In this document: positions 34,495 to 62,388 of the stretch, piece by piece | How positions within the stretch are numbered: the first letter of the stretch is position 1 | How the letters are laid out: the number at the start of each line of letters is the position of its first letter | Assembly (NCBI GenBank): GCA_017626095.1 | Contig: JAGAJL010000024.1 | Coordinates: forward strand, 1 to 64,000 | DNA length: 64,000 bases | Source: Lachnospiraceae bacterium | GTDB taxonomy: Bacteria; Bacillota; Clostridia; Lachnospirales; Lachnospiraceae | Reading direction: 5' to 3' | Notes under the pieces: model-generated | The model's input: the letters and a program-made list of their open reading frames with translations, nothing else | What the model was told of the DNA's origin: nothing | Database searches by the model: none | Program-made: the position numbers and the translations under genes

Positions 34495-34732
34495 TTTTTT
34501 TGGATTTGGAGTCCCGATATCTATCTTTGTCCACCTCGTACTTCGGTTTCTAGACTTTCTAAGTGGCATGCTCACAAAATATTTATTAGATGCCCGGTTT
34601 CAAAACTCAGACTTCGTCTTCAAACAGTTGAAACCGGGCATCCTTTTTGTTCGCTATGCCACTAAGAAAGTCACAAAACCTCGTAAAAGCCGGTGGACAA
34701 AGATAGATATCGGGACCCCAAATCCAAAAAAA
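34495..34732 (+). repeat. long palindromic element, copy 1 (238 bp)
   Basis: A near-complete inverted repeat. The outer arms run from TTTTTTTGGATTTGG at the left to CCAAATCCAAAAAAA at the right, with CGATATCTATCTTTGTCCACC mirrored by GGTGGACAAAGATAGATATCG. The inner arms are AAGTGGCAT/ATGCCACT and GATGCCCGGTTTCAA/TTGAAACCGGGCATC. The apex is CTCAGACTTCGTCTTC. The ORF it contains is a by-product. It lies between the LytTR gene and DUF454. Confidence 0.85.
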
Positions 34733-34754
34733 GAGGATGTCGAAAAACATCCTC
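34726..34754 (-). terminator. terminator after DUF454
   Basis: GAGGATGT (34733-34740) and ACATCCTC (34747-34754) form a stem followed on the minus strand by TTTTTTT. It abuts the palindromic element. Confidence 0.85.
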
Positions 34755-34788
34755 AATGCATTTACTTATTCAATTTATATATCAAGTT

Positions 34789-35058
34789 TTAAGAATCGCT
34801 TTTAGCATCAGAAGAATCATCTCCACTAAAACGTTCCCAAATCCTTGACATGGTTTTGCTTTTTTTAATATGCGGCTCTACATGCGTATGATACATACGA
34901 TGATTTAAAACAAAATCCTTTATTTTTTTAGAACTCATAATCAGCAGACAGGCTCCCAGTACCAAAAACGGAATCTGCGGAATAATGGGGAGTGCCAGTC
35001 CGATGATTCCTAAAATAAGAAACGCTATTCCAAGTATTAAGAAACATATTTTTTTCAT
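34789..35058 (-). CDS. DUF454 (YbaN-like) small membrane protein
   Basis: An 89-residue protein with two hydrophobic segments (about residues 4-22 and 28-41) and the family pattern LGIIGLALPIIPQIPFLVLGACL, followed by a basic stretch (SSKKIKDFVLNHRMY). It is of unknown function and sits in the inner membrane. GGAGGG precedes the ATG at 35058. It is a single-gene unit with a strong terminator. Confidence 0.82.
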   Translation of the reverse strand: MKKICFLILGIAFLILGIIGLALPIIPQIPFLVLGACLLIMSSKKIKDFVLNHRMYHTHVEPHIKKSKTMSRIWERFSGDDSSDAKSDS

Positions 35059-35205
35059 ATAAACCCTCCGATAACGATTTCCATTTTATATCACTATTGT
35101 ATCACACCAATAATTTAAAACGGCTTAAGGATTTATTAATTCTGTTTTAAAAATAGTATCAAAATTCCAAAAGCATACTTTTATGCGCGTAAGAATCTAA
35201 ATCAC

Positions 35206-36744
35206 CTATTCAGTTACATTCGGCGTACTTACATATTTCACAACCGTAAGTGCGCCTATCACAAGGAGTACACCAATAACAAGCGGTACAACAGCATTTT
35301 TTACAAAGCCTGCGATTAAATAGGTTATAAATGAAATAGCTGCCACCAAAATCACATACGGTATCTGCGTTGACACATGATTCATATGATTACACTGCGC
35401 ACCCGCAGATGCCATAATGGTCGTATCCGAAATCGGCGAACAATGATCTCCGCAAACAGCTCCTGCCATGCAGGCAGATATGGACATAATCATCATTGTC
35501 GGATCGTTTGCAAAACAGTCTACAACGATTGGAATCAGAATTCCAAAGGTGCCCCATGATGTTCCGGTTGAAAAAGCCAGAAATACGGCAACCAGAAAAA
35601 TTATGGCAGGCAGGCAATACAATAATGCGCCTGACATGCCGGCAATAACACCTGCTACATATTCTTTTGCTCCCAAACTATCTGTCATTGCTTTTAATGT
35701 CCATGCAAACGTTAATATTAAAATAGCCGGAACCATTGCCTTAAAGCCTTCCGGAATACATTCACAGGCCTTTTTAAAAGTCACAACACGACGGACCATA
35801 TAAAACAGAATGGTAATAACCAGTGCCACAAAGCTTCCCAGCATCAGTCCGACAGATGCATCACTGTTGGAAAACGCTTCGACAAAATCGGCTCCGCTAA
35901 AGAAACCGCCGGTATAAATCATGCCAATCACACAACTGATAATCAACACTGCAACCGGTAAAACCAAATCCGTAACGGTTCCTTTTGTACTGACTTCATC
36001 ATTCGTCACATTCGCATAAGGTCTGTCTTTGGTCGTATACAAATCGCCTTTTGCCGCATTTTCTTCATGCAACTTCATCGGTCCGAAATCCACTTTCATG
36101 ACAACCAATGCAACCATCGCAACAATGGTAAGCAAAGCATAGTAATTGTACGGAATGGCTTTCATAAAAACTGCAAATCCGTCTTCATTTTCCACAAATC
36201 CGGTCACAGCTGCAGCCCATGACGAAATGGGGGCAATAATACAAATCGGTGCTGCTGTTGCATCGATTAAATAAGCCAGTTTTGCCCGAGATACATTATG
36301 CCTGTCCGTAACAGGTCTCATAACACTACCAACTGTCAGACAGTTAAAATAGTCATCTACGAAAATAAGAACTCCCAAAACAATAGCCGCCAACTGGGCT
36401 CCAACCCGCGTTTTAATATGTGTTCCGGCCCATTTACCAAATGCAGCAGATCCTCCTGCAGCATTTAACAGACATACCATAATTCCCAAAACAACGAGAA
36501 ATACCAAAATACCCACATTATAACTATCAGACAAGACGCCTACCAGACCGTCTTCAAATATATGCAGCATTACCTTCTCACCATCAAAGGTTGGTGAGAA
36601 CATATCACCGTAAAACAAACCGCCAATTACAATGCCGACAAACAACGAACTGTATACCTCTTTGGTGATTAAGGCCAGTATAATTGCCACCAACGGCGGA
36701 ATCAATGCCCAAAAAGTTGCATACATTACAGGTACGTATTCCAT
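35206..36744 (-). CDS. Na+/H+ antiporter NhaC family protein
   Basis: A 512-residue membrane protein of about 11-12 helices. Family features include GGSAAFGKWAGTHIKTR, VLIFVDDYFNCLTVGSVMRPVTD (about residues 130-152) and the late STGTSWGTFGILIPIV and GDHCSPISDTT. The DDYFN and GDHCSPISD segments hold the charged and polar residues expected for ion exchange. The frame reaches 36801, but the ATG at 36744 follows AAGGAG. Whether it carries Na+ for H+ or an amine/organic acid cannot be told from sequence. Confidence 0.88.
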   Translation of the reverse strand: MEYVPVMYATFWALIPPLVAIILALITKEVYSSLFVGIVIGGLFYGDMFSPTFDGEKVMLHIFEDGLVGVLSDSYNVGILVFLVVLGIMVCLLNAAGGSAAFGKWAGTHIKTRVGAQLAAIVLGVLIFVDDYFNCLTVGSVMRPVTDRHNVSRAKLAYLIDATAAPICIIAPISSWAAAVTGFVENEDGFAVFMKAIPYNYYALLTIVAMVALVVMKVDFGPMKLHEENAAKGDLYTTKDRPYANVTNDEVSTKGTVTDLVLPVAVLIISCVIGMIYTGGFFSGADFVEAFSNSDASVGLMLGSFVALVITILFYMVRRVVTFKKACECIPEGFKAMVPAILILTFAWTLKAMTDSLGAKEYVAGVIAGMSGALLYCLPAIIFLVAVFLAFSTGTSWGTFGILIPIVVDCFANDPTMMIMSISACMAGAVCGDHCSPISDTTIMASAGAQCNHMNHVSTQIPYVILVAAISFITYLIAGFVKNAVVPLVIGVLLVIGALTVVKYVSTPNVTE

Positions 36745-36782
36745 ACTTTTCTCCTTCGTTAATAAGATTATTTTATATATGC

Positions 36783-36817
36783 AAAAAGGACCGTTTTTCA
36801 TGTATTAAAAACGGTCC
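36783..36817 (-). terminator. second of two tandem terminators after rpe
   Basis: GGACCGTTTTT and AAAAACGGTCC (36788-36817) form a perfect 11-bp stem followed on the minus strand by TTTTTGC. Confidence 0.8.
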
Positions 36818-36835
36818 TGTAAATACATATACCAA

Positions 36836-36872
36836 CAAAAACGGTTCTGTAAAAATGTGTTAAAAGAACCGT
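36836..36872 (-). terminator. first of two tandem terminators after rpe
   Basis: ACGGTTCT (36841-36848) pairs with AGAACCGT (36865-36872), then TTTTTG on the minus strand. The stem shares ACGGTTCTTTT with the dispersed GGGACG repeat. Confidence 0.75.
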
Positions 36873-36892
36873 CTACCTTAGACCGTTCCATC

Positions 36893-37546
36893 TCATTGTC
36901 CCAGAATGTCCATAAATTTTGCAACATTCTCTTTTATATCACCTTTGAAAACAGAAGAACCGGAAATAATCACATTTGCTCCGGCATCTAAAAGCATTTC
37001 CACATTCTGAAGTGTTACTCCTCCGTCTACAGCAACATCAACCGATAAACCTCTTCGTTCAATTTCTTTCCGGACTGCGGTTATTTTCTGTGTACAGCTG
37101 TCCAGATATTTCTGACCTCCAAATCCGGTATTAACCGTCATAACCAGCACCTGATCCACATAATCCAAATAGGGATACACCGATTCGATTGGTGTCTGCG
37201 GATGCAAAGAAATCCCCGTCCGCATACCTTTTCCTTTTATTTTTAAAAGTGTATCAATCATACAACGACAGGCTTCCACATGAATGGTCAGACTATTTGA
37301 TCCAACTTCGGCAAATTGATCAATATACCTCTCCGGCTCCTCAATCATCAGATGTACGTCAAAAAATTTATCCGTAATCGGTCTGATGGATTGAATAATC
37401 GGAAAACCAAAAGAAATGGACGGAACAAAAAGACCATCCATTACATCAATATGTATATACTCCGCGCCGGCCTCATCTGCAATCCGGATTTGCTCGCCAA
37501 GTTTTGAAAAATCAGCCGCTAAAATTGATGGGGACAAAATATTCAT
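36893..37546 (-). CDS. rpe: ribulose-phosphate 3-epimerase
   Basis: A 217-residue TIM-barrel enzyme that interconverts ribulose-5-phosphate and xylulose-5-phosphate. Metal and catalytic residues are visible in LSPSILAADFSKLG, YIHIDVMDGLFVPSISFG and FDVHLMIEEPERYI, with MTVNTGFGGQKY and VDGGVTLQNV further on. The frame is open to 37573, but the ATG at 37546 after AAAGGAG is right. It follows rsgA by 2 bp at the 3' end of the murE operon and is closed by two terminators. Confidence 0.95.
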   Translation of the reverse strand: MNILSPSILAADFSKLGEQIRIADEAGAEYIHIDVMDGLFVPSISFGFPIIQSIRPITDKFFDVHLMIEEPERYIDQFAEVGSNSLTIHVEACRCMIDTLLKIKGKGMRTGISLHPQTPIESVYPYLDYVDQVLVMTVNTGFGGQKYLDSCTQKITAVRKEIERRGLSVDVAVDGGVTLQNVEMLLDAGANVIISGSSVFKGDIKENVAKFMDILGQ

Positions 37547-37548
37547 TG

Positions 37549-38427
37549 CTAGTATCTCCTTTTGTTTTTGCATTCCGCATATAGATTTACATAGTCGTCA
37601 TAACGCTCTTTACTCATTTCCCCTAAAGTAAGAGCCTGCTTTACCCCACAATCAGGTTCATGAATATGTGCACATCCCAAAAACCTGCATTTATCCCGAT
37701 ATCTTCTCATCTCGGGAAAACAATTCTCCAATTCTTCCGGTAACAAATATGATACATCCAAGGAGCTAAATCCCGGTGTGTCAAAAATAAACGTATCCCG
37801 GTCAATTTCCAACAGTTCACTATGTCTGGTCGTATGCTTTCCTCTTGCAATCTTTTCACTCACAGAGCCGGTTTCCATAATCACCCGGTCCTGCAAAAGA
37901 TTGATTAATGTGGATTTACCAACTCCACTCGGACCGGCTACGGTTGTTACCTTACCTCTTAACAATTCCCGAACCAAATCAATTCCCTGCCCTTTTTTTG
38001 CACTGATCAAAACAGTCCGGTATCCTGCTTTTTCATAAATCTGCTGTAAATACTCCAAATCCGCATTGGAAACCAGATCGGCTTTGTTAAAACAGATAAT
38101 CGTTGGAATATTATAATGTTCCATCTGAATCAAAAACCGATCAAGTAATCCTAAATTGGGCATTGGATGCGCCGCCGCAAAGATAACCATTGCCTGATCA
38201 ATATTTGCCACAGCCGGGCGTATCAATTCATTCTTGCGATCCTTTATTTCTGAAATATGCCCCAGTGACTTGTCCTGATCCAAAACATCCATGGATACCA
38301 GATCACCTACCAAGGGCTTCTTATGATCTTTTCTGAAAACACCTTTGGCTTTGCACTCATATACGATGCCATCCGTACAACGGACATAATAAAATCCTGC
38401 AATTCCTTTTACAATAATTCCCTGCAT
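37549..38427 (-). CDS. rsgA: ribosome small subunit-dependent GTPase RsgA
   Basis: A 292-residue circularly permuted GTPase that assists 30S maturation. An OB-fold covers the first 70 residues. The G motifs come in permuted order: NKAD (about 115-118), then GPSGVGKSTLI (about 165-175), then DTPGF. A C-terminal zinc knuckle is formed by CRFLGCAHIHEPDC. A TTG at 38436 is in frame, but the ATG at 38427 follows AGGAA. It follows prkC by 12 bp, as in many Firmicutes. Confidence 0.95.
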   Translation of the reverse strand: MQGIIVKGIAGFYYVRCTDGIVYECKAKGVFRKDHKKPLVGDLVSMDVLDQDKSLGHISEIKDRKNELIRPAVANIDQAMVIFAAAHPMPNLGLLDRFLIQMEHYNIPTIICFNKADLVSNADLEYLQQIYEKAGYRTVLISAKKGQGIDLVRELLRGKVTTVAGPSGVGKSTLINLLQDRVIMETGSVSEKIARGKHTTRHSELLEIDRDTFIFDTPGFSSLDVSYLLPEELENCFPEMRRYRDKCRFLGCAHIHEPDCGVKQALTLGEMSKERYDDYVNLYAECKNKRRY

Positions 38428-38439
38428 GCAACCCAATTC

Positions 38440-40605
38440 CTATTCTGCCTTTGTAAAGGTTACATTCTGGACACCAAATTCAACCGGGACTTCAGTTTCC
38501 ACAGTGTCATAAATTGGATTTCCGGCTTCATCTACCTCACCGGTATCTACCGTCTGTGATTCTTTTTTTGTCCCATTCATAACAATGGTACCTGTTTCCG
38601 CTTTCAGTCCCGTCTCATTGATTTCATAAGGGAAAGAAGCTGTTTCGTACACCTTCTTTGTCCCTGCAGCATCCGTCAAAGTAATGGTAACCGTACCTCC
38701 TGTGTATCCTTCGGGTGCATTAAGAGTTACGGAATATTTATAAGATACATCTTTTTTACCTAAACTGATAACAAAATTAACCGTACTGTTTTCTCCGATT
38801 TCTGTTCCGGGAGAATAACTCTGGGAAAGGACATCCCCTTTGGTAACCGAGTCACTGTATTCCTCCGTAACCGTTCCAGCCTTTAAATTAGCTGAAGCTA
38901 ACTTATCCTTTGCCTCACTTTCGGACATACCTCTTAAATCCGGAACTGTTACCAGCTTTTCTGCCGGTCCGGAACTGATTTTCAAAACGATGGTAGATCC
39001 TGCTGCGACTTTTTCCAATGCGTCCGGTGACTGTGAAATAACCAGTCCCTCATCAATGGTATCGGAATATTCGGTTTCTTTGGAAACCCTGAATCCAAGT
39101 GACGTTAATGCTGTAGTAGCATCTGTCTCTGAACTTCCGACAACATTAGGAATTTCAATACCGGAAACACCACTGCTGACGGTTAAAATAACCAGACTGT
39201 GTTCTTCCACCATCTCGCCTTCGGCAATACTCTGTCTGATGACAATATTTTCCGGAACTTCTGACGATTCTTCATACTGAACATCCACAGATAAATACAG
39301 TTCTTCCAATGTCGATTTAGCGGCATCCACATTGAAACCAACCACATTGATCACTTCCACCATCTGGGTTTCTTCTTCCTGTGAATCGGAACCGCCCTTA
39401 AAAATACCAATGGCGTTTGCCACAAGTACCAACGCAATCACACCGATGATAACGGCTGCCACGATGGCTAAAATCGTTGTAATACGCTCCATCTTGGGAT
39501 CTAAATCATCATCATCGTACTCGTCATCGTCTTCGTATTCTTCTTCGTCGTATTCTTCATCCTCTTCTTCGACGTCTTCATCCTCATATTCATCTTCGTC
39601 GCTCTCATCATCCATAATCATAAATTTGGATTTCTTGGGCTTCGGCTTTTCTTCGTTTAAGCGCATATGAATATCTTCTACTGCCAAAGTACCGGTACGC
39701 TCTTTGATGGATGCAAGTTCTTCATCCGTAACCGGTCTGGTGGCGGCTGCTGTATCCACATCAATCATGGTTACAAAATCTTCATCCGGAGTAACCAGTG
39801 ATTTCTTTAAATCCAGTGTCAGCTCGCTCATCTTCTGATAACGACGGTCAGGGCTTTTCTGCGTACATTTATAAATGATTTTTTCTACACATACCGGAAT
39901 TTCAGGAACATATTCTCTGGGAGAAGGCATTTCATCCTGAATATGTTTAATGGCAATGGCAACCGTTGTTTCGCCATCAAAAGGCACATGTCCCGTTACC
40001 ATTTCAAATAAGGTACATCCCAAAGAGTAGATATCACTCTTTTCATCCGAGAAACCACCTCTTGCCTGCTCCGGAGAAGTATAATGAACACTACCCATGA
40101 CATTTGATGTAATCGTATTGCTGGTTGCTGCCTTGGCAATACCAAAATCCATGACTTTTACCTTGCCGTCACGGGAAATCATAATATTCTGAGGTTTGAT
40201 ATCCCTGTGAATAATATGATTGTTGTGTGCAGCTTCAATACCCATGGATACCTGAATTGCAATGCTGATTGCTTCTTTGATGGAAAGACGGGATTTTTTC
40301 TCGATATATTTTTTGAGCGTAATGCCCTCAATCAACTCCATAACGATATAATTGATACCATCTTCTTCACCAACGTCATAAACGCCGACAATATTGGGAT
40401 GCATCAATCCTGCCGCAGCCTGAGCTTCCACACGGAATTTGGAAACAAAATTTGTATTTTCCGAAAACTCCTGTTTCAAAACTTTCACTGCAACAAATCT
40501 GTTCAGTTTATGGTCCTTTGCTTTATATACATCGCTCATACCGCCGGTACCGATTTTATCCAAAATCTCATAGCGGTCTCCGATTAACATTCCAAGTATT
40601 ATCAT
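38440..40605 (-). CDS. prkC: PASTA-domain serine/threonine kinase PrkC
   Basis: A 721-residue membrane kinase that senses muropeptides or lipid II. The kinase domain (about residues 12-270) has GTGGMSDVYKA, the catalytic HRDIKPQN, DFGIAK and the activation segment SNVMGSVHYTSPEQARGG. A cytoplasmic linker of about 40 almost wholly acidic residues (around 328-368) precedes the membrane helix (about 375-398). Three PASTA repeats (VINVVGFNVDAAKSTL, IEIPNVVGSSETDATT, VTVPDLRGMSESEAKD) are followed by a C-terminal domain of about 120 residues. The start overlaps the stp stop by 4 bp. Confidence 0.95.
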   Translation of the reverse strand: MIILGMLIGDRYEILDKIGTGGMSDVYKAKDHKLNRFVAVKVLKQEFSENTNFVSKFRVEAQAAAGLMHPNIVGVYDVGEEDGINYIVMELIEGITLKKYIEKKSRLSIKEAISIAIQVSMGIEAAHNNHIIHRDIKPQNIMISRDGKVKVMDFGIAKAATSNTITSNVMGSVHYTSPEQARGGFSDEKSDIYSLGCTLFEMVTGHVPFDGETTVAIAIKHIQDEMPSPREYVPEIPVCVEKIIYKCTQKSPDRRYQKMSELTLDLKKSLVTPDEDFVTMIDVDTAAATRPVTDEELASIKERTGTLAVEDIHMRLNEEKPKPKKSKFMIMDDESDEDEYEDEDVEEEDEEYDEEEYEDDDEYDDDDLDPKMERITTILAIVAAVIIGVIALVLVANAIGIFKGGSDSQEEETQMVEVINVVGFNVDAAKSTLEELYLSVDVQYEESSEVPENIVIRQSIAEGEMVEEHSLVILTVSSGVSGIEIPNVVGSSETDATTALTSLGFRVSKETEYSDTIDEGLVISQSPDALEKVAAGSTIVLKISSGPAEKLVTVPDLRGMSESEAKDKLASANLKAGTVTEEYSDSVTKGDVLSQSYSPGTEIGENSTVNFVISLGKKDVSYKYSVTLNAPEGYTGGTVTITLTDAAGTKKVYETASFPYEINETGLKAETGTIVMNGTKKESQTVDTGEVDEAGNPIYDTVETEVPVEFGVQNVTFTKAE

Positions 40606-41360
40606 TCTTTCACCTCATCATCTTCAACCAGTCTGACCAAAACAACGGCAATATTGTCTTTTCCACCGTTTTCATTGGCTGCCTTAATCAAAGCATCACC
40701 CTTTTGAATCAATTCCTCTTTTTCAGGGTTTAATAAAATTGATTCAATTTCTTTATCTTCAAGCATATTGGTAAGACCATCGGAACACATCAAAACAATA
40801 TCCCCGGTCTCGAGCTCCTCTGTAAAGAAATCCGCTTCAACCTCATCTTTTGCTCCTATGGCTCTGGTTATAATATTTTTATCCGGATGCAATCTGGCAT
40901 CTTCCCTGCTCAGTCCGCCCAGACGAATCATCTCCTCAACCAGAGAATGATCCTCCGTAATCTGTCGCAAACCGTCTTTGTTAAGTAAATACAATCTGGA
41001 ATCCCCAATATTGGAAACCTGCAGATATTTTCCGATAATCGTGGCAGTAACCAGTGTCGTTCCCATGCCAAACAGACTTTCATTTTCAGATGCTTCTTTT
41101 CTGATTTTGGCATTTGCTGTTTTAATTGCCTTTTTAATGATAATCGTCGGATTCTTTTCAAAAGAATTCTGAATCTCATTCACAACGGTTTCCGTTGTAC
41201 ATTTCGACGCATAATCCCCGGCATTATGGCCGCCCATACCATCTGCAACAATAAACAGATTGGGCATGTTACCAAGCGGTTTTGCTGAAGAAAAAACATA
41301 ATCCTGATTCAGTTGTCTTTTTCTGCCAATATCCGTCGCGGAGTATGTCTCTAACAACAT
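40602..41360 (-). CDS. stp: PP2C-type Stp protein phosphatase
   Basis: A 252-residue metal-dependent phosphatase that reverses PrkC phosphorylation. Metal ligands are in VADGMGGHNAGDYAS (about residues 38-52) and in CSDGLTNMLED and KDNIAVVLV toward the C-terminus. The N-terminal ATDIGRKRQLNQDYVF is typical of Stp. Its stop overlaps the prkC start (ATGA), and rlmN ends 19 bp upstream. AAGGAGG precedes the ATG. Confidence 0.95.
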   Translation of the reverse strand: MLLETYSATDIGRKRQLNQDYVFSSAKPLGNMPNLFIVADGMGGHNAGDYASKCTTETVVNEIQNSFEKNPTIIIKKAIKTANAKIRKEASENESLFGMGTTLVTATIIGKYLQVSNIGDSRLYLLNKDGLRQITEDHSLVEEMIRLGGLSREDARLHPDKNIITRAIGAKDEVEADFFTEELETGDIVLMCSDGLTNMLEDKEIESILLNPEKEELIQKGDALIKAANENGGKDNIAVVLVRLVEDDEVKE

Positions 41361-41379
41361 GTTTCCTCCTTGTTATATG

Positions 41380-42510: not shown

Positions 42511-42529
42511 ATTCTTTTCTATATAATGA

Positions 42530-42604
42530 GTTGGGTCAAAAAGTATTTTACCCCCATTGATACCAACGGATTGCTACGCATTTTGCGTTCTCACAATCCT
42601 AAAC
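42530..42604 (-). repeat. 75-bp structured dispersed repeat, rlmN copy
   Basis: On the minus strand it begins TTTAGGATTG and contains GCGTAGCAATCC, CGTTGGTATCAATGG and TTTTTGACCC. The second copy lies at 60484-60559 in the same orientation relative to the next gene. Two hairpins can form: GGATTG/CAATCC and GGGT/ACCC. The rsmB stop codon (TAG) is part of the repeat. Confidence 0.8.
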
Positions 42605-45506: not shown

Positions 45507-45516
45507 TTTCTTCCTC

Positions 45517-50893: not shown

Positions 50894-51012
50894 AGATAGT
50901 GAGTTTTGCTTCAACTATCTTGATACCAACTATACTGACAAAATGTGTTCATTTTGTGATTAAAATATGAAAAAAAATGAAACTTTCTTAACTGTTTCTT
51001 TATTTTTTATTA

Positions 51013-51248
51013 CCTTTTCGGATTTGTGTTCCTATTTTATATCTTTATCACCGGCTTTCACAAGGTTTCGTGTCTTTCTTAGCACCATAAGCGAACAAAA
51101 ATAATGACCGGTTTCAACTGTTTGAAGACAAAGTCTGAGTTTTGAAACCGGTCATTTAATAATACTTTGTGAGCATGGCGCTTAGAAAGCCTAGAAACCG
51201 AAGTACAAGGAGATGAAGATATAAAATAGGAACACAAATCCCAAAAGG
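51013..51248 (-). repeat. long palindromic element, copy 2 (236 bp)
   Basis: Same design as copy 1, in opposite orientation. Outer arms are CCTTTTCGGATTTGTGTTCC at the left and GGAACACAAATCCCAAAAGG at the right. The inner stem is ATGACCGGTTTCAA/TTGAAACCGGTCAT, where copies 1 and 3 have GCCCGG/CCGGGC. The apex on the minus strand is CTCAGACTTTGTCTTC. It ends 9 bp before the pfkB stop codon. Confidence 0.85.
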
Positions 51249-51257
51249 GAATCATTT

Positions 51258-54497: not shown

Positions 54498-55427
54498 CTA
54501 TACCAACAGATACACAAAATATCCCGCATAGCACAAAAGCATCGTAATTCCGACCGGACGTGAAAGTTTATGGTTTTTCAAAACGCCAAGCCAGAGTATG
54601 ATACCGGCTCCGACAGCAACCAGACTGTCTATAATGAAATTGTTCTGGAACATAACCGGTGTAACTATCGCAGTTGTTCCACATACAAACAAGACATTAA
54701 AAATATTACTTCCGACAATATTACCGATTGCAATGTCTGCTTTTTTCTTATGTGCAGCCATAATACTGGTAACAAGCTCCGGCAGTGAAGTTCCGAATGC
54801 CACAATGGTAAGTCCCACAAACCGCTCTGACATTCCAAAAAATCTGGCAATCGCACTTGCGGAATCAACAGCAACATCGGCACCCCAAACAACCAGTACG
54901 GCACCGACAATTCCCAAAATAATTAAAAGCCATACCGGCTCACTCTTCTCCGGCTTGGTATCTTCTTTGTTTTTCTTTGCCATCATGAGCAGATAAATCA
55001 TATACAGAATGAAAAGTCCCCACATCATAAGACCTTCTGCAAAAGTTATGACATTACCTGACATTCCAAACAACAGCATGACAATCATGGTCAAAAGCAT
55101 AAACGGCATTTCATAACGGACGGTGGATTTTTGTACCGCTATGGTTGTAATCACAGCGGTGATGCCAAGAATAACTAAAATATTCATGATATTGCTACCC
55201 ACAACATTTCCTACAGTAATGCCCGCATTACCTTTTACAGCCGAAGCAATACTGACCGCAGCTTCCGGGGCACTTGTTCCCATTGCCACAATCGTCAAAC
55301 CGATTACCAATTGCGGAATTCCGAATTTTTCCGCTATTCCGGCGACACCTTCCACGAACCAGTCTGCTCCTTTTACAAGCATCACAAATCCGAGTACCAA
55401 TAATAAAAACTGAACAACTAAATCCAT
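54498..55427 (-). CDS. calcium/sodium antiporter (CaCA family, YrbG type)
   Basis: A 309-residue membrane protein made of two repeats of five helices. Each repeat carries the alpha motif: TIVAMGTSAPEAAVSI with GNVVGSNIMNILVILG (first) and TIVAFGTSLPELVTSI with GNIVGSNIFNVLFVCG (second). These hold the acidic and polar residues that bind cations. The family exchanges Ca2+ for Na+ or K+; the direction here is unknown. The ribosome binding site is weak (AGAGAA). Confidence 0.92.
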   Translation of the reverse strand: MDLVVQFLLLVLGFVMLVKGADWFVEGVAGIAEKFGIPQLVIGLTIVAMGTSAPEAAVSIASAVKGNAGITVGNVVGSNIMNILVILGITAVITTIAVQKSTVRYEMPFMLLTMIVMLLFGMSGNVITFAEGLMMWGLFILYMIYLLMMAKKNKEDTKPEKSEPVWLLIILGIVGAVLVVWGADVAVDSASAIARFFGMSERFVGLTIVAFGTSLPELVTSIMAAHKKKADIAIGNIVGSNIFNVLFVCGTTAIVTPVMFQNNFIIDSLVAVGAGIILWLGVLKNHKLSRPVGITMLLCYAGYFVYLLV

Positions 55428-55684
55428 TTTAATTCTCTGCCTTTTTGTTTTCTATTTTATTTTTATGATATATGACATAAAATACCGCAATTACGTCGTT
55501 TTATTCCGTATCCGATTCTATTTTATCTGCATATAAACAAACTCATCCTTTTAAAATGCACATTTTTCTCTTTTCACGATACCAGATTCAAAAGTTTATA
55601 CTTTTTATACCTGTATGAAAAAGTATGGATTTTTCACGTCTTGTCTTACTTCCTGCTTACGATTGCATGGAAATAGAAAAACTG

Positions 55685-55739
55685 AAAAAGCCAAAAGATA
55701 AAGTCCCACATAATAAGTACTTTACATCTTTTGGCTTTT
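55685..55739 (-). terminator. terminator after secDF
   Basis: AAAAAGCCAAAAGAT (55685-55699) pairs with ATCTTTTGGCTTTT (55726-55739); an inner AAAGT/ACTTT helix narrows the loop. U-rich arms on both strands allow bidirectional use. The rest of 55428-55773 is AT-rich without a gene. Confidence 0.75.
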
Positions 55740-55773
55740 CTTTTCAATAAAGAAACTCAGTTTTATATTTTAT

Positions 55774-58041
55774 TTATTTTTTTGTTGCTTTTTTAACAAT
55801 ATACTTCTTCATCACAAACCACAGTGCACCGGTGATGCAGACAGAAGAATAGGCTCCACAGATAATACCTACCATCAAAGGCAGAGCAAATTCACGGATA
55901 CTTGTCACACCAAGGATATACAATACCGCTACCATGACAAAGGTCGTGAAGGAAGTATTGATACTTCTTGACAAGGTCTGTGTAATACTGGTGTTAACAA
56001 TGTTATCCAGCTCAGTCTTCTTGGGCATTTCTTTTAAGTTTTCACGGATACGGTCAAAAATAACGATGGTCGCATTAATGGAATAGCCGACAATAGTCAA
56101 CATACATGCAATAAAGGTATTTCCGACGCTGGTTTTACTGATTGCATAAAATGCCAGAACAACCAAAACATCATGAACCAAAGCAACAACCGCACTGGTT
56201 GCAAAACGGATATCGCTGAAACGAATCCAGATATACAACAGCATACAAAGTGTTGCAATGACAACGGCAACAACGGCGTCCGATTTCATTTCCGAACTGA
56301 TTGTCGCACTGATTGTCTCAGACTGGACATCATCGGAAGAAACCTGGAAATTGGTATCTAACATATCTTCCACCGCTTCTCTCTCTTCTACCGAAAGGCT
56401 TCTTGTCTTAATGACAACCTCTGTTGTTCCGCTAACCTTCTGTGTCTGAACCGCACCGTCTCCGGTAATCTCTTCAAACAACGGAACTACTTTGGAATCC
56501 AGTTCTTCAATGCTCATATCTTCATTGAAGGTAACGGTTGTGGAAGTACCACCAACAAATTCCATGGAGTAATTCAATATATTGCCGGTTGATGATTTGT
56601 TCACACCAAGCATCACAAATCCGCCGATAATCACAACTAAGGAAATGGCAAAGAAAACAGCTTTTTTACTTAAGAAATTAATCGCCTTATGTTCTTTTCC
56701 GATACCATACCACTTTTCATCCTGGAAACCGACTGCATAAAAGAGATGCAGTAATACTCTTGTTACCACCATGGCAGTAAACATGGAAAGAATAATACCA
56801 ATCATCAAGGTCTGAGCAAATCCCTTTACCGTACCGGAGCCCTTTAGCACCAGCACAACTGCCGCAATAAAGGTTGTGATATTTCCATCCACAATGGCTG
56901 AAGTGGCTTTATCAAAACCAATCTTAATGGAAGATTTTACCGTCTTTCCGGTTGCAAGCTCTTCCCTGATACGGGCAAAGATGATGACATTGGCATCAAC
57001 CGCCATACCGATGGCAAGAATAACACCGGCTACACCCGGAAGTGTCAGCGTAAGATTAAAGCCGTTTAATACTAACAATGTCATAATGACATAAATCAAC
57101 AGAGCAACAGCTGATGTCAATCCGGGAATAAAATATACAACAATCATAAAAATACAGACAATTGCAAGACCGATTGCACCGGCTTTTAAACTGGTCTTAA
57201 TGGCATCGGAACCAAGTTGTGCTCCAACAACATTGGATCTCATTTCCTCAAGCTCTAAGCTAAGTCCACCGATACGAATGGTGGATGCCAGTGTTTTGGC
57301 CTCTTCAATACTTTCCATACCGGTAATCTGTGCCTGTCCGCCTGTAATAACGGAAATAACATTCGGTACGGAAACCAGTTCTCCATCATAATAAATACCG
57401 ATAGATTCTCCTCTGTTGTAAGCACGCTCTGTAGCCTTTGCAAACGCCTCGGAGCCTTCCTGGGTAAATGTCAGTTCAACCACATACTCCATCTCCTGCA
57501 ATGCTCCGCTACTCTGTGTAGCACCGGCATCAGCAGCGGCAACTTTTGTACCATCCAAAGGAATGGAACCCTCTGCCATCAATTCATCAATGGATTTGGT
57601 CAGGGAATAAATATATTTTCCTTTTTCCTCATCAAAACCGGTTAACGTATAATTTGCTTCACCGGCTTCGTTTGTCTGATAAATAAAATACAGACTTCCG
57701 GGCTGACCTAATTCCTGCAATATCGCATTGGCATCCGATACACCGGGAATTTCGATATTGATACGATTATCACCTTCCTGATAAACCTGTGCCTCGGTAG
57801 AATAGTTTTCTACACGTTTCTGCAGTTTGTAAATGGTATCTGACATATCTTCGGAAGAAGGTGCTTCCTCTCCCACAACCTGATATGTGATACTGACACC
57901 ACCTGCTAAATCCAGGCCCTGTTTAATATTTGCCATTGATCCGGTTTTTCCCGATCCAATACCGAAAAAGGCAACATAACCCATTCCGACTGATGCGATC
58001 AGAAAAAGAATCAGCAATGCGGCAGCTGTTCTTTTTTTCAT
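55774..58041 (-). CDS. secDF: fused protein-export membrane protein SecDF
   Basis: A 755-residue fusion of SecD (about residues 1-430) and SecF (about 440-755), which uses the proton gradient to help SecYEG export. SecD has the first helix, QGLDLAGGVSITYQV, the periplasmic P1 domain and GLAIVCIFMIVVYFIPGL...VDANVIIFARIREEL; SecF begins near AINFLSKKAVFFAI with MEFVGGTSTTV and ends with YSINATIVIFDRIREN. The fused form is usual in Firmicutes. The start follows the scfB stop by 1 bp. Confidence 0.96.
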   Translation of the reverse strand: MKKRTAAALLILFLIASVGMGYVAFFGIGSGKTGSMANIKQGLDLAGGVSITYQVVGEEAPSSEDMSDTIYKLQKRVENYSTEAQVYQEGDNRINIEIPGVSDANAILQELGQPGSLYFIYQTNEAGEANYTLTGFDEEKGKYIYSLTKSIDELMAEGSIPLDGTKVAAADAGATQSSGALQEMEYVVELTFTQEGSEAFAKATERAYNRGESIGIYYDGELVSVPNVISVITGGQAQITGMESIEEAKTLASTIRIGGLSLELEEMRSNVVGAQLGSDAIKTSLKAGAIGLAIVCIFMIVVYFIPGLTSAVALLIYVIMTLLVLNGFNLTLTLPGVAGVILAIGMAVDANVIIFARIREELATGKTVKSSIKIGFDKATSAIVDGNITTFIAAVVLVLKGSGTVKGFAQTLMIGIILSMFTAMVVTRVLLHLFYAVGFQDEKWYGIGKEHKAINFLSKKAVFFAISLVVIIGGFVMLGVNKSSTGNILNYSMEFVGGTSTTVTFNEDMSIEELDSKVVPLFEEITGDGAVQTQKVSGTTEVVIKTRSLSVEEREAVEDMLDTNFQVSSDDVQSETISATISSEMKSDAVVAVVIATLCMLLYIWIRFSDIRFATSAVVALVHDVLVVLAFYAISKTSVGNTFIACMLTIVGYSINATIVIFDRIRENLKEMPKKTELDNIVNTSITQTLSRSINTSFTTFVMVAVLYILGVTSIREFALPLMVGIICGAYSSVCITGALWFVMKKYIVKKATKK

Positions 58042-58042
58042 G

Positions 58043-59443
58043 TTAGTTCTCCTCTCCTGCAGCCAAAGCCGCTTTGATCATAATAGCACATTCAATCCGT
58101 TTTCTCTGCAATTCACATCCGATATCATATGCATCATATATACTGTTTCCATAATTATAAGCATTGGCAGCACAACCGCCGCTGCAATAAAATTTGGCAA
58201 AACAATTCTTACATTTATCCTTGGCATAGACATTACAGCCTTTAAATTGTTGCATGATGTCAGGACGTACAATCCCATCATCCACATTTCCCATTAAAAA
58301 CTCTTCCATACCGACAAACTGGTGACAAGGATAAAAATCTCCCCATGGAGTAACCGCCAGATATTCCGTTCCGGAACCACATCCGGACAATCTCTTATAA
58401 ACACAGGGCCCGCCTTCCATATCAATCATAAAATGAAAGAAATTAAAATCCCTGCCGTTTTGCTTGCGCTCAATGATCATTTTGGCAAGCTTGTCATATT
58501 CTTCCTTAATCATCGGAACGTCTTGTTCTGTAATGGCATAATCTTCTTTTTCGTCGGCAACAACCGGCTCAACCGAAATCTGTTTAAAACCGAGATCTGC
58601 CAGATGCATTACGTCATTAGCAAAATCCAGATTGTTATGCGTAAAGGTTCCCCTTACATAATAATTCATCTGGTTGCGGCTTTCCGCCACTTTGATATAC
58701 TTGGGAACAACTTCGTCATAACTGCCCTGTCCGCCCCGGTGCGGTCGCATCAGATCATGAATTTCCTTGCGTCCATCAATACTTAAGACAATGTTACTCA
58801 TCTCGCGGTTGACAAATTCGAGAATTTCATCATTTAAAAGTACACCGTTGGTTGTCAGGGTAAAACGGAACTTTTTATGGAAGGGCTCTTCCAAAGATCG
58901 TCCGTAATGGACAAGATCTTTAACCACCTGCCAGTTTAACAAGGGTTCTCCGCCAAAAAAATCAACTTCTAAATTAACTCTGTTGCCGGAATTCTTTACC
59001 AAAAAATCCAAAGCCTTTTTTCCGACTTCATAACTCATAATGGCGCGTCTGCCGTGATATTCTCCCTCTTCCGCAAAACAGTATTTACAAGCCAGATTAC
59101 AATCATGAGCAATATGTAAACACAGAGCTTTTACCACTGTTTCACGTTCTCCGAATTGTTCAATATACGGCTCATAAATATCTTCCGTATATAAAAGTCC
59201 TGCCTCATACAATTCCATTATTTCATCAACTGCCTCGGCAATATCACTTTCCGAATATTGTTTGTCTTTATCTGACAACACTTTAAAGGCAACCTCTGAT
59301 ACTTTTTCTTTATCAGACTTTGCCTTAATGCATTCTTCTAATTCGGGAATCAAATCATACACGACATCATCAACGACATGAACGGCACCGCTATTGACAT
59401 CCAATGCGATTTTAAAACCGTTGTTTTGATATACATGTACCAC
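58043..59443 (-). CDS. scfB: SCIFF radical SAM maturase
   Basis: A 466-residue radical SAM/SPASM enzyme that forms thioether links in the SCIFF peptide. The N-terminal region starts MVHVYQNNGFKIALDVNSGAVHV, a peptide-binding segment characteristic of this family. The radical SAM cluster is CNLACKYC (about residues 105-112). The SPASM domain binds two more clusters (CVYKRLSGCGSG, CHQF, CKNCFAKFYCSGGC). The frame is open upstream to 59482, but that part lies in a dispersed repeat; the GTG at 59443 with AAGGAG 9 bases upstream fits the family. secDF follows directly. Confidence 0.95.
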   Translation of the reverse strand: MVHVYQNNGFKIALDVNSGAVHVVDDVVYDLIPELEECIKAKSDKEKVSEVAFKVLSDKDKQYSESDIAEAVDEIMELYEAGLLYTEDIYEPYIEQFGERETVVKALCLHIAHDCNLACKYCFAEEGEYHGRRAIMSYEVGKKALDFLVKNSGNRVNLEVDFFGGEPLLNWQVVKDLVHYGRSLEEPFHKKFRFTLTTNGVLLNDEILEFVNREMSNIVLSIDGRKEIHDLMRPHRGGQGSYDEVVPKYIKVAESRNQMNYYVRGTFTHNNLDFANDVMHLADLGFKQISVEPVVADEKEDYAITEQDVPMIKEEYDKLAKMIIERKQNGRDFNFFHFMIDMEGGPCVYKRLSGCGSGTEYLAVTPWGDFYPCHQFVGMEEFLMGNVDDGIVRPDIMQQFKGCNVYAKDKCKNCFAKFYCSGGCAANAYNYGNSIYDAYDIGCELQRKRIECAIMIKAALAAGEEN

Positions 59444-59462
59444 GTTTGTTTTCTCCTTATTT

Positions 59463-59495
59463 GGGGACGGTTCTTTTGTCACAAGGAGCGTCCCT
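59463..59495. repeat. dispersed GGGACG repeat upstream of scfB
   Basis: GGGGACGGTTCTTTTGTCAC with a closing AGCGTCCC forms inverted ends GGGACG/CGTCCC. It is in the scfA-scfB spacer, just before the scfB ribosome binding site. Confidence 0.75.
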
Positions 59496-59522
59496 ATGTT
59501 ATATTATATTATTTGTTTCATG

Positions 59523-59550
59523 AAAAGGGGCGTAAACCAAAAACCGCCCC
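59523..59550 (-). terminator. second attenuator hairpin between scfA and scfB
   Basis: GGGGCG (59527-59532) and CGCCCC (59545-59550) form a stem followed on the minus strand by TTTTC. Confidence 0.65.
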
Positions 59551-59553
59551 ATG

Positions 59554-59580
59554 AAAAAGCAGCGACCGCAATCGCTGCTT
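59554..59580 (-). terminator. first attenuator hairpin after scfA
   Basis: AGCAGCGA and TCGCTGCT (59558-59580) form an 8-9 bp stem followed on the minus strand by TTTTTC, 14 bp after the scfA stop. Partial read-through would give more precursor peptide than enzyme. Confidence 0.75.
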
Positions 59581-59593
59581 ATGAAACATCGTA

Positions 59594-59737
59594 TTATTTA
59601 ACCTGTTCGCAACTCTGATTACCAACTGTGCAGGATGTTTTGCAAGCTGACTGGCAAGATGTCTGGCATTCACCGCAACCGCCTTTTTTCACAGTTTTCT
59701 TAAGGTCTCTTGTGCTTAATGTTTTGATATGCTTCAT
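59594..59737 (-). CDS. scfA: SCIFF precursor peptide (six cysteines in forty-five residues)
   Basis: A 47-residue ribosomal peptide starting MKHIKTLSTRDLKK, with a GGCGECQTSCQSACKTSC core and a sixth Cys near the C-terminus (NQSCEQVK). It is almost identical to the known SCIFF consensus of Clostridia. ScfB links cysteine sulfur to backbone carbons; the biological role of the product is not established. GGAGG lies 2 bases before one ATG and 8 bases before the next; the second (59737) is used by the family. It has its own extended -10 promoter and a leader hairpin. Confidence 0.97.
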   Translation of the reverse strand: MKHIKTLSTRDLKKTVKKGGCGECQTSCQSACKTSCTVGNQSCEQVK

Positions 59738-59762
59738 GAACATAGCCTCCTTATTCACTTAA

Positions 59763-59784
59763 ACAGTTTCTATCCTGAAACTGT
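59763..59784 (-). promoter_or_regulatory. inverted repeat in the scfA leader
   Basis: ACAGTTTC and GAAACTGT are separated by 6 bp, just downstream of the presumed transcription start. It may be an operator or an RNA hairpin near the 5' end. Confidence 0.5.
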
Positions 59785-59795
59785 ACTCTTTGGCA

Positions 59796-59824
59796 ATTAT
59801 AGCATAGATTTTTCTGTATTGAAA
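59796..59824 (-). promoter_or_regulatory. scfA promoter
   Basis: TGCTATAAT (extended -10, TATAAT at 59796-59801) with a weak TTTCAA at 17 bp. It lies in the gap between the TIGR04086 gene and scfA. Confidence 0.6.
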
Positions 59825-59834
59825 GACTTTTTTT

Positions 59835-60221
59835 CTAGCTTAACATCCCGCCTAACATTCCGCCGCCTGCACAAAGAAGATAGGTTGTAATCATTCCTCT
59901 TCCTACCACCATATCCGATACACCACCAATCATGGAAACTACAGTTAAAATCAGAAAATAGACACTTCCGAGAATCAGTCCCCACAGGAATTTTTTAACT
60001 TTAAACCGCTTTCCGGCTACAAATCCCGCAAAAAATGTCATGCAGACATAAATAACGATAACGGCCATATTTACCACATTCTCCGAAATACGGAATTTAT
60101 ACAAGATAAATGCCAAAAGTAAAAGACATCCTGCCGTCAGGACATAAGATGCCACCAATATCACAAGTGCTGATAATATTTTCTGATCCTGCTGTTCCCG
60201 TTTCAACATCCATTTTCTCAT
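59835..60221 (-). CDS. TIGR04086 family membrane protein
   Basis: A 128-residue protein with four hydrophobic helices, a basic N-terminus (RKWMLKREQQDQK) and a Gly-rich end (CAGGGMLGGML). This family occurs next to scfA in Clostridia. Its role is unknown; a part in export or tolerance of the SCIFF product is only a guess from position. The TTG at 60227 is in frame, but the ATG at 60221 after AGAGG is better spaced. Confidence 0.82.
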   Translation of the reverse strand: MRKWMLKREQQDQKILSALVILVASYVLTAGCLLLLAFILYKFRISENVVNMAVIVIYVCMTFFAGFVAGKRFKVKKFLWGLILGSVYFLILTVVSMIGGVSDMVVGRGMITTYLLCAGGGMLGGMLS

Positions 60222-60392
60222 ATCCAACCTCTTCTTTCTTTCAAATTAATTTTTCTGAATAAACTTCTTTCTTTCAAATTTATTTTGTCTGAATAAATAA
60301 GTATATTTTCTAAAAAAACAATTTCTTAAAAGCACAATGTCAAAATAAGTGTACTTTACACTTCGTTTATCTTTCGATTATACAAACTTTAC
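60222..60392. other. intergenic region between the TIGR04086 and corC-like genes
   Basis: Divergent promoter region, very AT-rich, with a direct repeat of TTCTTTCTTTCAAATT- and TTTTTCTGAATAAA-like words at about 60234-60300. No gene is seen. Confidence 0.4.
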
Positions 60393-60422
60393 TTGACAAA
60401 TTCAAAGTATATATAGTATCTT
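60393..60422 (+). promoter_or_regulatory. putative promoter of the corC-like gene
   Basis: TTGACA (60393-60398) and TATCTT (60417-60422) with an 18-bp spacer. The resulting leader would be about 200 nt and contain the structured repeat at 60484-60559. Confidence 0.5.
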
Positions 60423-60483
60423 TCCTTATACATAAATACTATGAAAAAAGATTTCATTTATGTATCTTTTATGTATAAAATAT

Positions 60484-60559
60484 GTTTTAGGATTGCGAGA
60501 ACATAAAGTGCGTAGCAATCCGTTGGTATCATGGGGTCAAAATACCTTGTGACCTCAAC
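60484..60559 (+). repeat. 75-bp structured dispersed repeat, corC copy
   Basis: It begins TTTTAGGATTGCGAGAAC and contains GTGCGTAGCAATCC, CGTTGGTATCATGGGG and TGTGACC. Hairpins GGATTGC/GCAATCC and GGTCA/TGACC can form. The orientation matches the following gene, as for the rlmN copy. Confidence 0.8.
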
Positions 60560-60631
60560 ATCATATGTTTCATAGTATTTAGAAACAGTATTTTGAAACA
60601 CTACAAATTCAGAAAAGAGGTTAATTTTCAC

Positions 60632-61957
60632 TTGGACACATCAGATGCCATACAACTTATCATTCTTATCATTTTACTTTTTCTTTCCGCTTTTTTTTCT
60701 TCTGCGGAGACAGCCCTTACCAGCGTCAACCGAATAAAAATGAAAACGCTTGCGGATGAAGGCGATAAAAAAGCACGGACCGTTCTGGATGTTTTAGAAA
60801 ACACCGGAAAGATGTTGAGCACAATTTTAATAGGTAATAACATCGTGAACATCACAACCACTACTCTTGCAACCGCACTGACAATACGCTTGTTCGGCAG
60901 TGTGTTTATCGGTCTTGTCACAGCAATACTGACAGTTTTAGTTCTATTATTTGGTGAAATCGTCCCCAAAACCGCTGCGAGCATCAATTCCGAAAAAATG
61001 GCACGGGTATATGCACCCATTATCCGCGTTTTAATGTTTATTCTGACACCGGTTATTTTTATCATTGACAAACTTTCTGTTTTCTTTTTGAAACTGGCAG
61101 GAATTGACAGCGAAACAGCACACAGTGCCATGACAGAAAGTGAATTAAAGACATATGTCGAAGTCAGCCACGAAGACGGTGCTATTGAAACAGAAGAAAG
61201 GGAAATGATTTTAAACGTATTTGATTTCGGCGATTCTCTTGCAAAAGACATCATGATTCCACGAATTGAAATGACAATGATTGATGTGGATGCATCTTAT
61301 ACCAAGCTGCGCACGCTGTTTAAAAACACGTTGTTTTCGCGTATTCCCGTATATGAGGGAGATAAAGACAATATCATCGGAAGTGTCAACTTAAAAGACT
61401 TTTTCCTTGTCAATAAAAAAACCGATTTCAACATCCGAAATATCATGCGTGACATCTATTATACCTATGAAACCAAAAAGACAGATGATTTGATGGTAGA
61501 GATGCGTGAAAGTGCCAATAATATTGCGATCGTACTAGATGAATACGGTTCTGCCGTAGGACTAATTACATTGGAAGATTTATTGGAAGAAATTGTAGGT
61601 GAAATCCGCGATGAATATGATACGGAAGAAGAAGAACTCATTAAAGAAATAGGTCCCAATACCTATGATATTGCCGGTTCCATGAAGCTTGACGATATCA
61701 ATGATGCATTGGATACCAGTTTCACATCCGAAGATTATGACTCCATCGGTGGTATTATGATTGAATGTCTGGATCACATTCCCAAGAAAAATGAAATTGC
61801 TGTTTTGGAAGACGGCACACAGATACAGGCTTCCAACATTAACAAAAACCGTATTCTGCGCGTCATTGTTACCCTGCCTTTACATACGCCGGCGGACGAA
61901 GATGAATCAAGCACAAGCCAATCCGATCAATCATCTGACGAAGTAACGCAGGACTGA
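60632..61957 (+). CDS. hemolysin C/CorC family membrane protein
   Basis: A 441-residue protein with an N-terminal DUF21 membrane domain (four helices, about residues 5-150; LFLSAFFSSAETALTSVNR is its start), a pair of CBS domains (about 200-320, with DIMIPRIEMTMID and IAIVLDEYGSAVGLITLEDLLEEIVGEI) and a CorC/HlyC C-terminal domain. The family is linked to Mg2+ efflux or homeostasis. The frame opens at a TTG at 60593, but the TTG at 60632 lies after AGAGG and directly before the first helix. The end is a Ser/Asp-rich tail. Confidence 0.85.
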   Translation: MDTSDAIQLIILIILLFLSAFFSSAETALTSVNRIKMKTLADEGDKKARTVLDVLENTGKMLSTILIGNNIVNITTTTLATALTIRLFGSVFIGLVTAILTVLVLLFGEIVPKTAASINSEKMARVYAPIIRVLMFILTPVIFIIDKLSVFFLKLAGIDSETAHSAMTESELKTYVEVSHEDGAIETEEREMILNVFDFGDSLAKDIMIPRIEMTMIDVDASYTKLRTLFKNTLFSRIPVYEGDKDNIIGSVNLKDFFLVNKKTDFNIRNIMRDIYYTYETKKTDDLMVEMRESANNIAIVLDEYGSAVGLITLEDLLEEIVGEIRDEYDTEEEELIKEIGPNTYDIAGSMKLDDINDALDTSFTSEDYDSIGGIMIECLDHIPKKNEIAVLEDGTQIQASNINKNRILRVIVTLPLHTPADEDESSTSQSDQSSDEVTQD

Positions 61958-61964
61958 TGTGAAT

Positions 61965-62388
61965 ATGCAAAAAAAGCGAATATATGGAGCTTGCAGACCG
62001 ATTATGCAGACGCTCTGCCGCGTTTCTCACAAGGTTCGCAATCTTTGCGGGATGGCAGTCACCCCTACAGAAATATATATCTTTGCCGCTTCATACTTCG
62101 GTTTCCGGCATTTCTAAGCGGCATGCTCACAAAGTATATATTAAATGCCCGGTTTCAAAACTCAGACTTCGTCTTCAGACAGTTGAAACCGGGCATTATT
62201 TTTTGTTCGCTTATGCCGCTAAGAAATGCCAGGAAACCTCGCCAAATTTCACGGGCAAAGATATATAATTTCTGTTAGGGCGACTGGCTATGTCCCCAAA
62301 GTTGCGAATAATAAATAGTGAGAAACGACGGCAGAGAAAAAAGTCTGCATCTAAGGTCAAAAGCTCCATATATACGCGCTTTTTGCAT
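61965..62388 (+). repeat. long palindromic element, copy 3 (424 bp, nested)
   Basis: It fills almost the whole gap between convergent genes. The outermost arms (ATGCAAAAAAAGCG... and ...CGCGCTTTTTGCAT; ATATATGGAGCTT and AAGCTCCATATAT) enclose further paired blocks such as CGTTTCTCAC/GTGAGAAACG and TTCGCAA/TTGCGAA. Inside (about 62077-62276) is the unit shared with copies 1 and 2, with AAGCGGCAT/ATGCCGCT, ATGCCCGGTTTCAA/TTGAAACCGGGCAT and the same apex. Confidence 0.88.

Follow-up and report, generated by a model that had tools for sequence, protein, structure and literature searches.

Background

The window analysed here, 64,000 nucleotides (nt) of a Lachnospiraceae bacterium (positions 1 to 64,000 of contig JAGAJL010000024.1, assembly GCA_017626095.1), holds three long palindromic segments between its genes, and the question raised by this locus is what kind of element such palindromes represent. 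An earlier note, made from the sequence alone, described them as near-complete inverted repeats with shared motifs and a conserved apex, and suggested a fold-back transposable element, a structured RNA or a chromosome-organising site. The observation is correct and bigger than first noted, the three palindromes being members of a large family that a few related gut bacteria carry. We propose that the family is a small, non-autonomous element of the kind of miniature inverted-repeat transposable elements (MITEs), that its apical hairpin with the adjoining T-tract came to act as a putative intrinsic terminator, and that its arms and interiors are rewritten by template switching; taken as a whole, this explanation is in our judgement a probable one.

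The palindromic family and its anatomy

All three inverted repeats were confirmed at the noted places by arm pairing and by fold statistics. The outer arms of copies 1, 2 and 3 are 41, 44 and 28 nt long and 98%, 91% and 89% complementary, and the fold z-scores are -17.4, -13.9 and -18.0, no shuffled sequence folding equally well. The outer arms differ among the three copies, yet pair inside each copy. In every copy a perfect inner stem of 15 bp encloses a 24-nt gap with the apex motif; the shared motifs, apex included, are all legible in the window sequence, and a 26-nt apex pattern (up to three mismatches) gave three matches in the window versus none in 100 shuffles. All three copies are palindromic, although "near-complete" is slightly too generous for copy 3, whose decayed right end was recognised through comparison with the relative G002. 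Each copy is intergenic, as had been stated, and lies between longer open reading frames, which are convergent around copies 2 and 3. The absence of encoded protein holds with one reservation: frames of 82-95 amino acids overlap copy 3, and these we take as palindromic sequence.

A lack of further copies in the genome had been named in the earlier note as a result that would speak against it; the apex pattern was found 80 times in the window's own assembly (G000; 2.74 Mb, 55 contigs, 86.6% complete), 68 times in G002 and 73 times in G008, with no match in six other congeners, i.e., three of nine genus genomes carry the family. The same 26-nt pattern read backwards had no match in G000. In a family-level sample the element was present in two of 397 genomes, G000 and G008. 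G000 (A) supplied 78, G002 (B) 67 and G008 (C) 71 of the 216 distinct copies in the working set. When public genomes were scanned for the apex, 39 of 105 stretches among the matches listed were judged relatives, and they lie in three Lachnospiraceae metagenome-assembled genomes (JAFOEY01, CAMEJJ01 and JAQXTA01). Exact family patterns had no match in viral contigs, copy 1 had no plasmid match and copy 3 no phage match.

Apex matches in Halobacillus and Thalassobacillus were rejected as relatives and belong to a different palindromic repeat, which also contains CTCAGACTTCGTCTTC (L034, L041, L042, L055, L067, L085, L092, L097, L108, L118 and L121). Several G000 contigs start or end within a copy (e.g., C17, C18, C22, C23, C44, C48 and C51; L015 and L024 are long forms). 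Near-identical copies therefore seem to interrupt the assembly, so that the true number of copies may be higher.

The element ends in inverted repeats, CCCTTTTCGGATTTGTGTTCCC. Terminal inverted repeats of the GGATTTGTGTTCCC type (also TCCCTTTTCGGATTTGTG) are found on both sides of many copies, and other copies have lost one or both. In complete copies the GGATTTG end motifs enclose approximately 222 or 467 nt, for a total of approximately 240 nt (short form) or 490 nt (long form); the long form contains an extra outer module of roughly 120 nt per arm, and both forms occur at one orthologous site (L031 versus L157). The two core arms carry different conserved motifs, ACTTCGGTTT and GCATGCTCACAAA on the left and TTTTGTTCGC, GCTAAGAAA and AAAACCTCG on the right, and the apical hairpin is arranged as AAATGCCCGGTTTC-loop-GAAACCGGGCATT, with ATTATTTTT behind it in many copies. 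Core motif orientation is fixed relative to the apex: both standard motifs were recognised in 125 of the 216 copies, both reversed in none, and a right arm with the reverse complement of the left motif in eight. Solo hairpins of approximately 30 nt, CCCTTTTC..GAAAAGGG (L191, L193, L196 and L230), look like scars of interior deletion between short repeats. At 1430-1660 of L021 in G000 the left arm is lost and coding sequence runs into the element hairpin, unlike the same site in L051 of JAFOEY01.

Evidence for insertion

The fold-back transposable element suggested at the outset is the reading that the data favour, on the grounds of inverted ends, a target duplication of approximately 9 bp, empty sites in relatives and some 75 dispersed copies. 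For ten two-armed A copies that had no recognised orthologue, the corresponding sites were sought in B and C. The flanks of nine were located in both relatives, and two of these nine loci (A049 and A029) showed clean empty sites. At A049 the empty site in C reads ...GACGACCTTTTTTT ATAAAATGT TTTGAAAAAAATC, with a single ATAAAATGT, and the filled sites in A and B have ATAAAATAT on both sides of the element, which is partly deleted in B. At A029, B and C are empty and read GGGTTTTTCTTTTTTTTACGTG, a T-tract, and in A the element is bordered on each side by CTTTTTT, a duplication of approximately 7 bp. Both insertions lie directly behind an intrinsic terminator, and terminators pointing at the element were present at 19 of 131 element ends versus 8 of 655 shuffles (some orthologous loci counted twice). 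Among 43 two-ended copies an AT-rich target duplication of approximately 9 bp was detected as a mean best mismatch of 2.98 in 9 versus 3.57 (sd 0.16), with 0 of 300 shuffles as good, in a test that was devised after seeing A049, includes A049 and counts some orthologues twice. For A042, copying of the flank by template switching was considered and dropped; this flank fits a target duplication with one mismatch.

Genomic placement and a probable terminator role

The element favours the 3' ends of genes. Two hundred copies are flanked by frames on both sides, 91 of them in convergent, 91 in tandem and 18 in divergent arrangement; of the other 16, two lie inside a reading frame and 14 are unclassifiable. 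Loci of 8 kb from B and C had been selected for containing an element; in these, the intergenic regions with an element were 17 convergent, 16 tandem and 4 divergent (n=37), and those without were 12, 84 and 23 (n=119). Between tandem genes, copies with fewer than 70 paired arm positions have the apical hairpin and T-tract in the path of the upstream gene in 28 cases versus 10 (p 0.005, orthologues counted separately), and two-armed copies have no orientation preference (28 versus 25). The apical hairpin, a 15-bp stem followed by a T-rich tract, fits a terminator in position and orientation, and its loop is longer than that of a classic terminator. The apical hairpin and T-tract are probably an intrinsic terminator for the upstream gene, and thereby likely to have a role as RNA at mRNA 3' ends.

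Divergence among orthologues was compared with that of third codon positions beside the elements, which is 15.0%. In two-armed orthologues the apex differs by 1.6%, the inner stem by 3.3%, TTTTGTTCGC by 3.1%, GCTAAGAAA by 3.6% and AAAACCTCG by 3.8%, the rest of the arm by 7.4%. In 17 pairs with fewer than 45 paired arm positions in each copy, the apex, inner stem and TTTTGTTCGC differ by 4.7%, 2.9% and 5.8%, and GCTAAGAAA and AAAACCTCG by 11.6% and 16.9%; apex conservation is biased upwards in these figures, as the apex belongs to the search pattern and the outer motifs do not. With one pair per locus, GCTAAGAAA and AAAACCTCG together show 18 changes in 452 positions at 25 two-armed loci versus 25 in 175 at 15 one-armed loci (p 2.4e-5), and the apex and inner stem show 29 in 1225 versus 27 in 725 (p 0.09); flank divergence is 6.0% at two-armed and 7.0% at one-armed loci. 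Both classes keep the apical hairpin, as expected of a terminator, and its conservation together with the T-tract after arm loss would fit such a use. The outer, asymmetric motifs change at roughly one-fourth the rate of third codon positions, a slowness confined to copies with both arms.

This last constraint is the puzzle of the family. The intact two-armed hairpin might serve a separate function, in which a host factor would read the arm motifs (ACTTCGGTTT, GCATGCTCACAAA, TTTTGTTCGC, AAAACCTCG and the CTAAG/CTAAG mismatch) at approximately 40 sites per genome while template switching acts on the stems and the core flips repeatedly; we put this forward tentatively, and rather doubt it. If true, these sites would make up, across the genome, a set of gene ends that can be inverted and are recognised by their structure, and nothing of this kind has been described so far.

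Arm co-evolution

In 40 orthologous pairs of the same orientation, some of which share loci, 42 pairing-preserving changes in both arms were counted versus 59 one-sided stem changes, on the basis of these 59 and 1508 positions that pair in both copies (another 97 are unpaired in both); about one double change is expected under independence. Window copy 1, for example, reads GATATCTATC / GATAGATATC where C reads AATATATATC / GATATATATT, two positions being altered in both arms. A standard covariation test on 41 of the 47 two-armed G000 copies gave double changes in 12 of 46 pairs, with none of 500 shuffles as high. Covarying stems are usually regarded as strong evidence of selected RNA, and the copies could accordingly be read as structured RNA genes or 3' untranslated region (3'-UTR) RNAs, with selection on base pairing preserving the stems. 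Such selection would agree with the constraint on arm motifs in two-armed copies and with the better folding of the strand complementary to the apex orientation, seen in all 41 sampled copies with RNA parameters and in 40 of 41 with DNA parameters. Against this reading, transversions outnumber transitions among the double changes (26 to 16), and the leftover stem mismatches are 25 G-U versus 32 A-C in 121 copies and 13 versus 24 in orthologues, without a bias towards G-U. This argues for arm-to-arm copying in DNA, even though covariation is commonly read as RNA. Inverted ends and target duplications are transposon traits, and Rfam contained no match at gathering score. The structured RNA of the earlier note is in our view an unlikely reading, and is unsupported as the cause of the covariation. 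Concerted evolution was rejected: orthologues differ by 5.3% (8.2% when inverted) and paralogues by 15%.

A second alternative is mobilisation in the form of a single-stranded DNA hairpin whose structure is recognised, in the manner of HUH/Y1 transposases or integron integrases, the loops serving as recognition marks. It would account for the conserved, asymmetric arm motifs, for A.A mismatches within otherwise well-paired arms (60 scored cases in 121 copies; also the CTAAG/CTAAG position of alignment A1) and for mismatches without strand bias. The Y1_Tnp domain (PF01797) was, however, not found in G000 (86.6% complete) or G008 (rated 100% complete), with one match in G002, and a Y1 transposase was rejected as partner on this ground; no search was aimed at integron integrases. 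A target duplication of approximately 9 bp points to double-strand, DDE-type insertion, and selection on mobility does not predict constraint in orthologous copies that do not move. Mobilisation through a single-stranded hairpin is therefore decidedly improbable.

Cores inverted in place

Orthologous copies were matched through both flanks. The apex lies in opposite orientation relative to the flanks in 18 of 58 two-armed orthologous pairs (A-B 7 of 21, A-C 4 of 19, B-C 7 of 18), and in 10 of 26 three-way loci, with arms intact or not, one species is inverted (three of the ten with all copies two-armed). The nearest copy is still the orthologue in 14 of the 18 inverted pairs (45 of 58 overall), so these are inversions and not replacements. 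The orthologue of copy 1 in B has an inverted interior, and its left outer end still matches C (GGATTTGGGTTTCC); the turn thus lies inside the element ends. All three assemblies apparently come from metagenomes (two carry that label). Exact inverted repeats reach at most 47 nt in the 122 two-armed copies and 40 nt in the inverted pairs, which makes k-mer misassembly, and hence an assembly artefact, unlikely. Template switching between the arms of inverted repeats is described as a cause of arm homogenisation and spacer inversion (PMC8604942) and as maintaining hairpins (PMC8794818). Arm co-evolution and in-place inversion in this family fit replication template switching better than selection on RNA.

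Inversion at this frequency might also come from programmed switches at gene 3' ends, turned by a site-specific recombinase (phase variation). The breakpoints differ, however: of the 43 copies with a recognised outer module, 33 have it in the standard orientation with respect to the apex, 5 have it inverted and 5 are mixed, and module and core have turned together in the inverted pair A044/C168. The genes beside the window copies are ordinary (LytTR, DUF454, EamA, PfkB, CNNM/CorC and phosphopantetheinyl transferase). On these grounds, and with no search aimed at recombinase genes, phase variation is judged very improbable. The chromosome-organising site of the earlier note, or a gyrase-type site, would suit the many dispersed intergenic copies, but with only three of nine genus genomes carrying the family, single copies lost between close species and no support in this analysis, it is hardly credible.

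Proposed course of events and its significance

According to the explanation that we prefer, the MITE-like one, a transposase acting in trans would have spread the copies, and the T-tracts of intrinsic terminators would have been favoured targets. After insertion, the apical hairpin and T-tract would serve the upstream gene as an intrinsic terminator and be kept for that. During replication, polymerase template switching between the arms would copy arm onto arm and turn the interior round, and slippage between short repeats at the hairpin base would delete interiors, leaving scars.

Besides the design of the duplication test given above, several results weigh against this explanation. The remaining seven A-only sites have shortened copies, remnants or scars, or sequence that is unalignable across the site, and loss is commoner than insertion in the species comparison. 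(Twelve copies of the relatives lacked a counterpart among the G000 loci collected for that comparison; nine of their sites were located in G000, and eight of the nine were judged to have an element, scar or remnant.) An exact search for target duplications gave nothing clear, and in a further test the signal was small, with 5 of 200 shuffles as good. No autonomous partner, i.e., an inward-facing pair of ends 0.7-4 kb apart, was found among the matches listed; the parent insertion sequence (IS) is often absent for bacterial MITEs, and its absence was therefore not counted as excluding a MITE. A simple terminator scan with loops of 3-8 nt misses the apical hairpin of copy 1. Of the 42 paired changes, 14 fall in two pairs, A053/B101 and B110/C155, in which another copy may have overwritten the locus. 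The arm-motif constraint in two-armed copies is unaccounted for by terminator function.

Arm homogenisation and in-place inversion are documented with unusual clarity in this family; the template-switch mechanism and the terminator role are what we infer. Among its 216 copies in three close species, stems covary without an excess of G-U, and covariation at loci where the palindrome also inverts is a warning for covariation-based RNA discovery. The family permits template switching at long palindromes to be measured in nature, and it offers a case of a mobile repeat settling behind terminators and apparently being co-opted as a putative terminator itself.

Features in the window and other observations

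Table 1. Positions of the palindromic copies, their parts and associated features (window coordinates unless a locus is named)
Feature	Position	Strand	Remarks
Copy 1, short form	34495..34732	+	arms 34495-34535 / 34692-34732; orthologues in both relatives, one with inverted interior
Copy 1 apical hairpin and T-tract, putative intrinsic terminator	34589..34655	+	stem 34589-34603 / 34628-34642, apex motif in loop; constraint in one-armed family members
Host intrinsic terminator behind gene 34789-35058	34733..34754	-	T-tract abuts end of copy 1; probable target
Copy 2, short form	51009..51252	-	arms 51009-51052 / 51209-51252; apex on minus strand; orthologues in both relatives
Copy 2 apical hairpin	51103..51156	-	
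Copy 3, long form	61965..62388	+	outer arms 61965-61992 / 62361-62388; collapsed remnants at same site in both relatives
Copy 3 inner arms	62071-62087 / 62254-62270 and 62102-62124 / 62213-62235		
Copy 3 apical hairpin	62144..62197	+	
Copy 3 decayed right end	62397..62417	.	cf. GGAACACAAATCCG in G002; within 3' end of neighbouring minus-strand frame
Second palindromic repeat	L171:3174-3196; L184; window 60535-60554 (-) and 42534-42553		

The same species also have another dispersed palindromic repeat, GGTCAAAAGGTATTTTGACC, accompanied at some sites by GATACCAACGGATTGCTACGCAC, which sometimes lies near the first family; the GATACCAACGGATTGCTACGCAC motif was present in 13 of 393 loci. Some stretches are 98-100% identical between G000 and JAFOEY01 (L099 and L132 against L145, L146 and L181), most other matched stretches being 86-96% identical, which suggests recent exchange.

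Comparison with known systems

The copies share with MITEs a short length without a transposase gene, terminal inverted repeats and a target-site duplication, and the genes beside the window copies have no transposase domain; a parent IS with the same ends was not seen among the matches listed. The repetitive elements REP, BIME and REPIN are units of 20-40 bp mobilised by a Y1 transposase (RAYT); the present unit is far longer, and PF01797 was not found in G000 or G008, so the family does not agree with them. Comparison with Rfam, which the earlier note had proposed, gave no window match at the gathering cut-off; the best sub-threshold match was MIR8007 (E 9.4e-8, 46 bits versus a cut-off of 195), and the sub-threshold matches were mainly long-hairpin microRNA precursors. 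Our searches of the open-licence literature in PubMed Central turned up no account of the element.

SPRITE of Streptococcus pneumoniae is, like the window family, a terminator-like repeat, and QMITE2 of Coxiella is a mostly 3'-UTR MITE with copies that have lost one end (both PMC10969869). Template-switch mutation at inverted repeats resembles what is seen here in arm homogenisation and spacer inversion (PMC8604942, PMC8794818); the inverted yeast spacers described in PMC8604942 are a few bases long, whereas here the inverted interior is approximately 100 bases or more, in a family of some 75 loci per genome.

ERIC is an imperfect palindrome. Also called IRU or RU-1, this enterobacterial repeat is like the window family mainly intergenic, has many copies and can act at mRNA 3' ends, but it is 127 bp long with TA at its ends (PMC2229807, PMC10969869). 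ERIC occurs in E. coli (PMC10969869), and copy 1 had no match in 20,395 E. coli records (blastn, E 1e-5), so similarity to ERIC in sequence was not found.

YPAL (RU-2) of Yersinia measures approximately 168 bp, contains internal inverted repeats and duplicates 3-26 bp of its target (PMC2229807). Like the window family it is a mobile palindrome that lies between genes and is between one and a few hundred bp long; in both, the targets span or adjoin dyad symmetries, and empty and filled sites are found between close species. As far as that description of YPAL goes, the window family is set apart by its lengths of approximately 240 and 490 nt, its terminal inverted repeats and duplication of approximately 9 bp, and by arms that co-evolve and interiors that invert. 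As far as our searches show, then, this is a new MITE-like palindromic family in sequence and host, not a known RNA, and nearest in kind to YPAL and ERIC.

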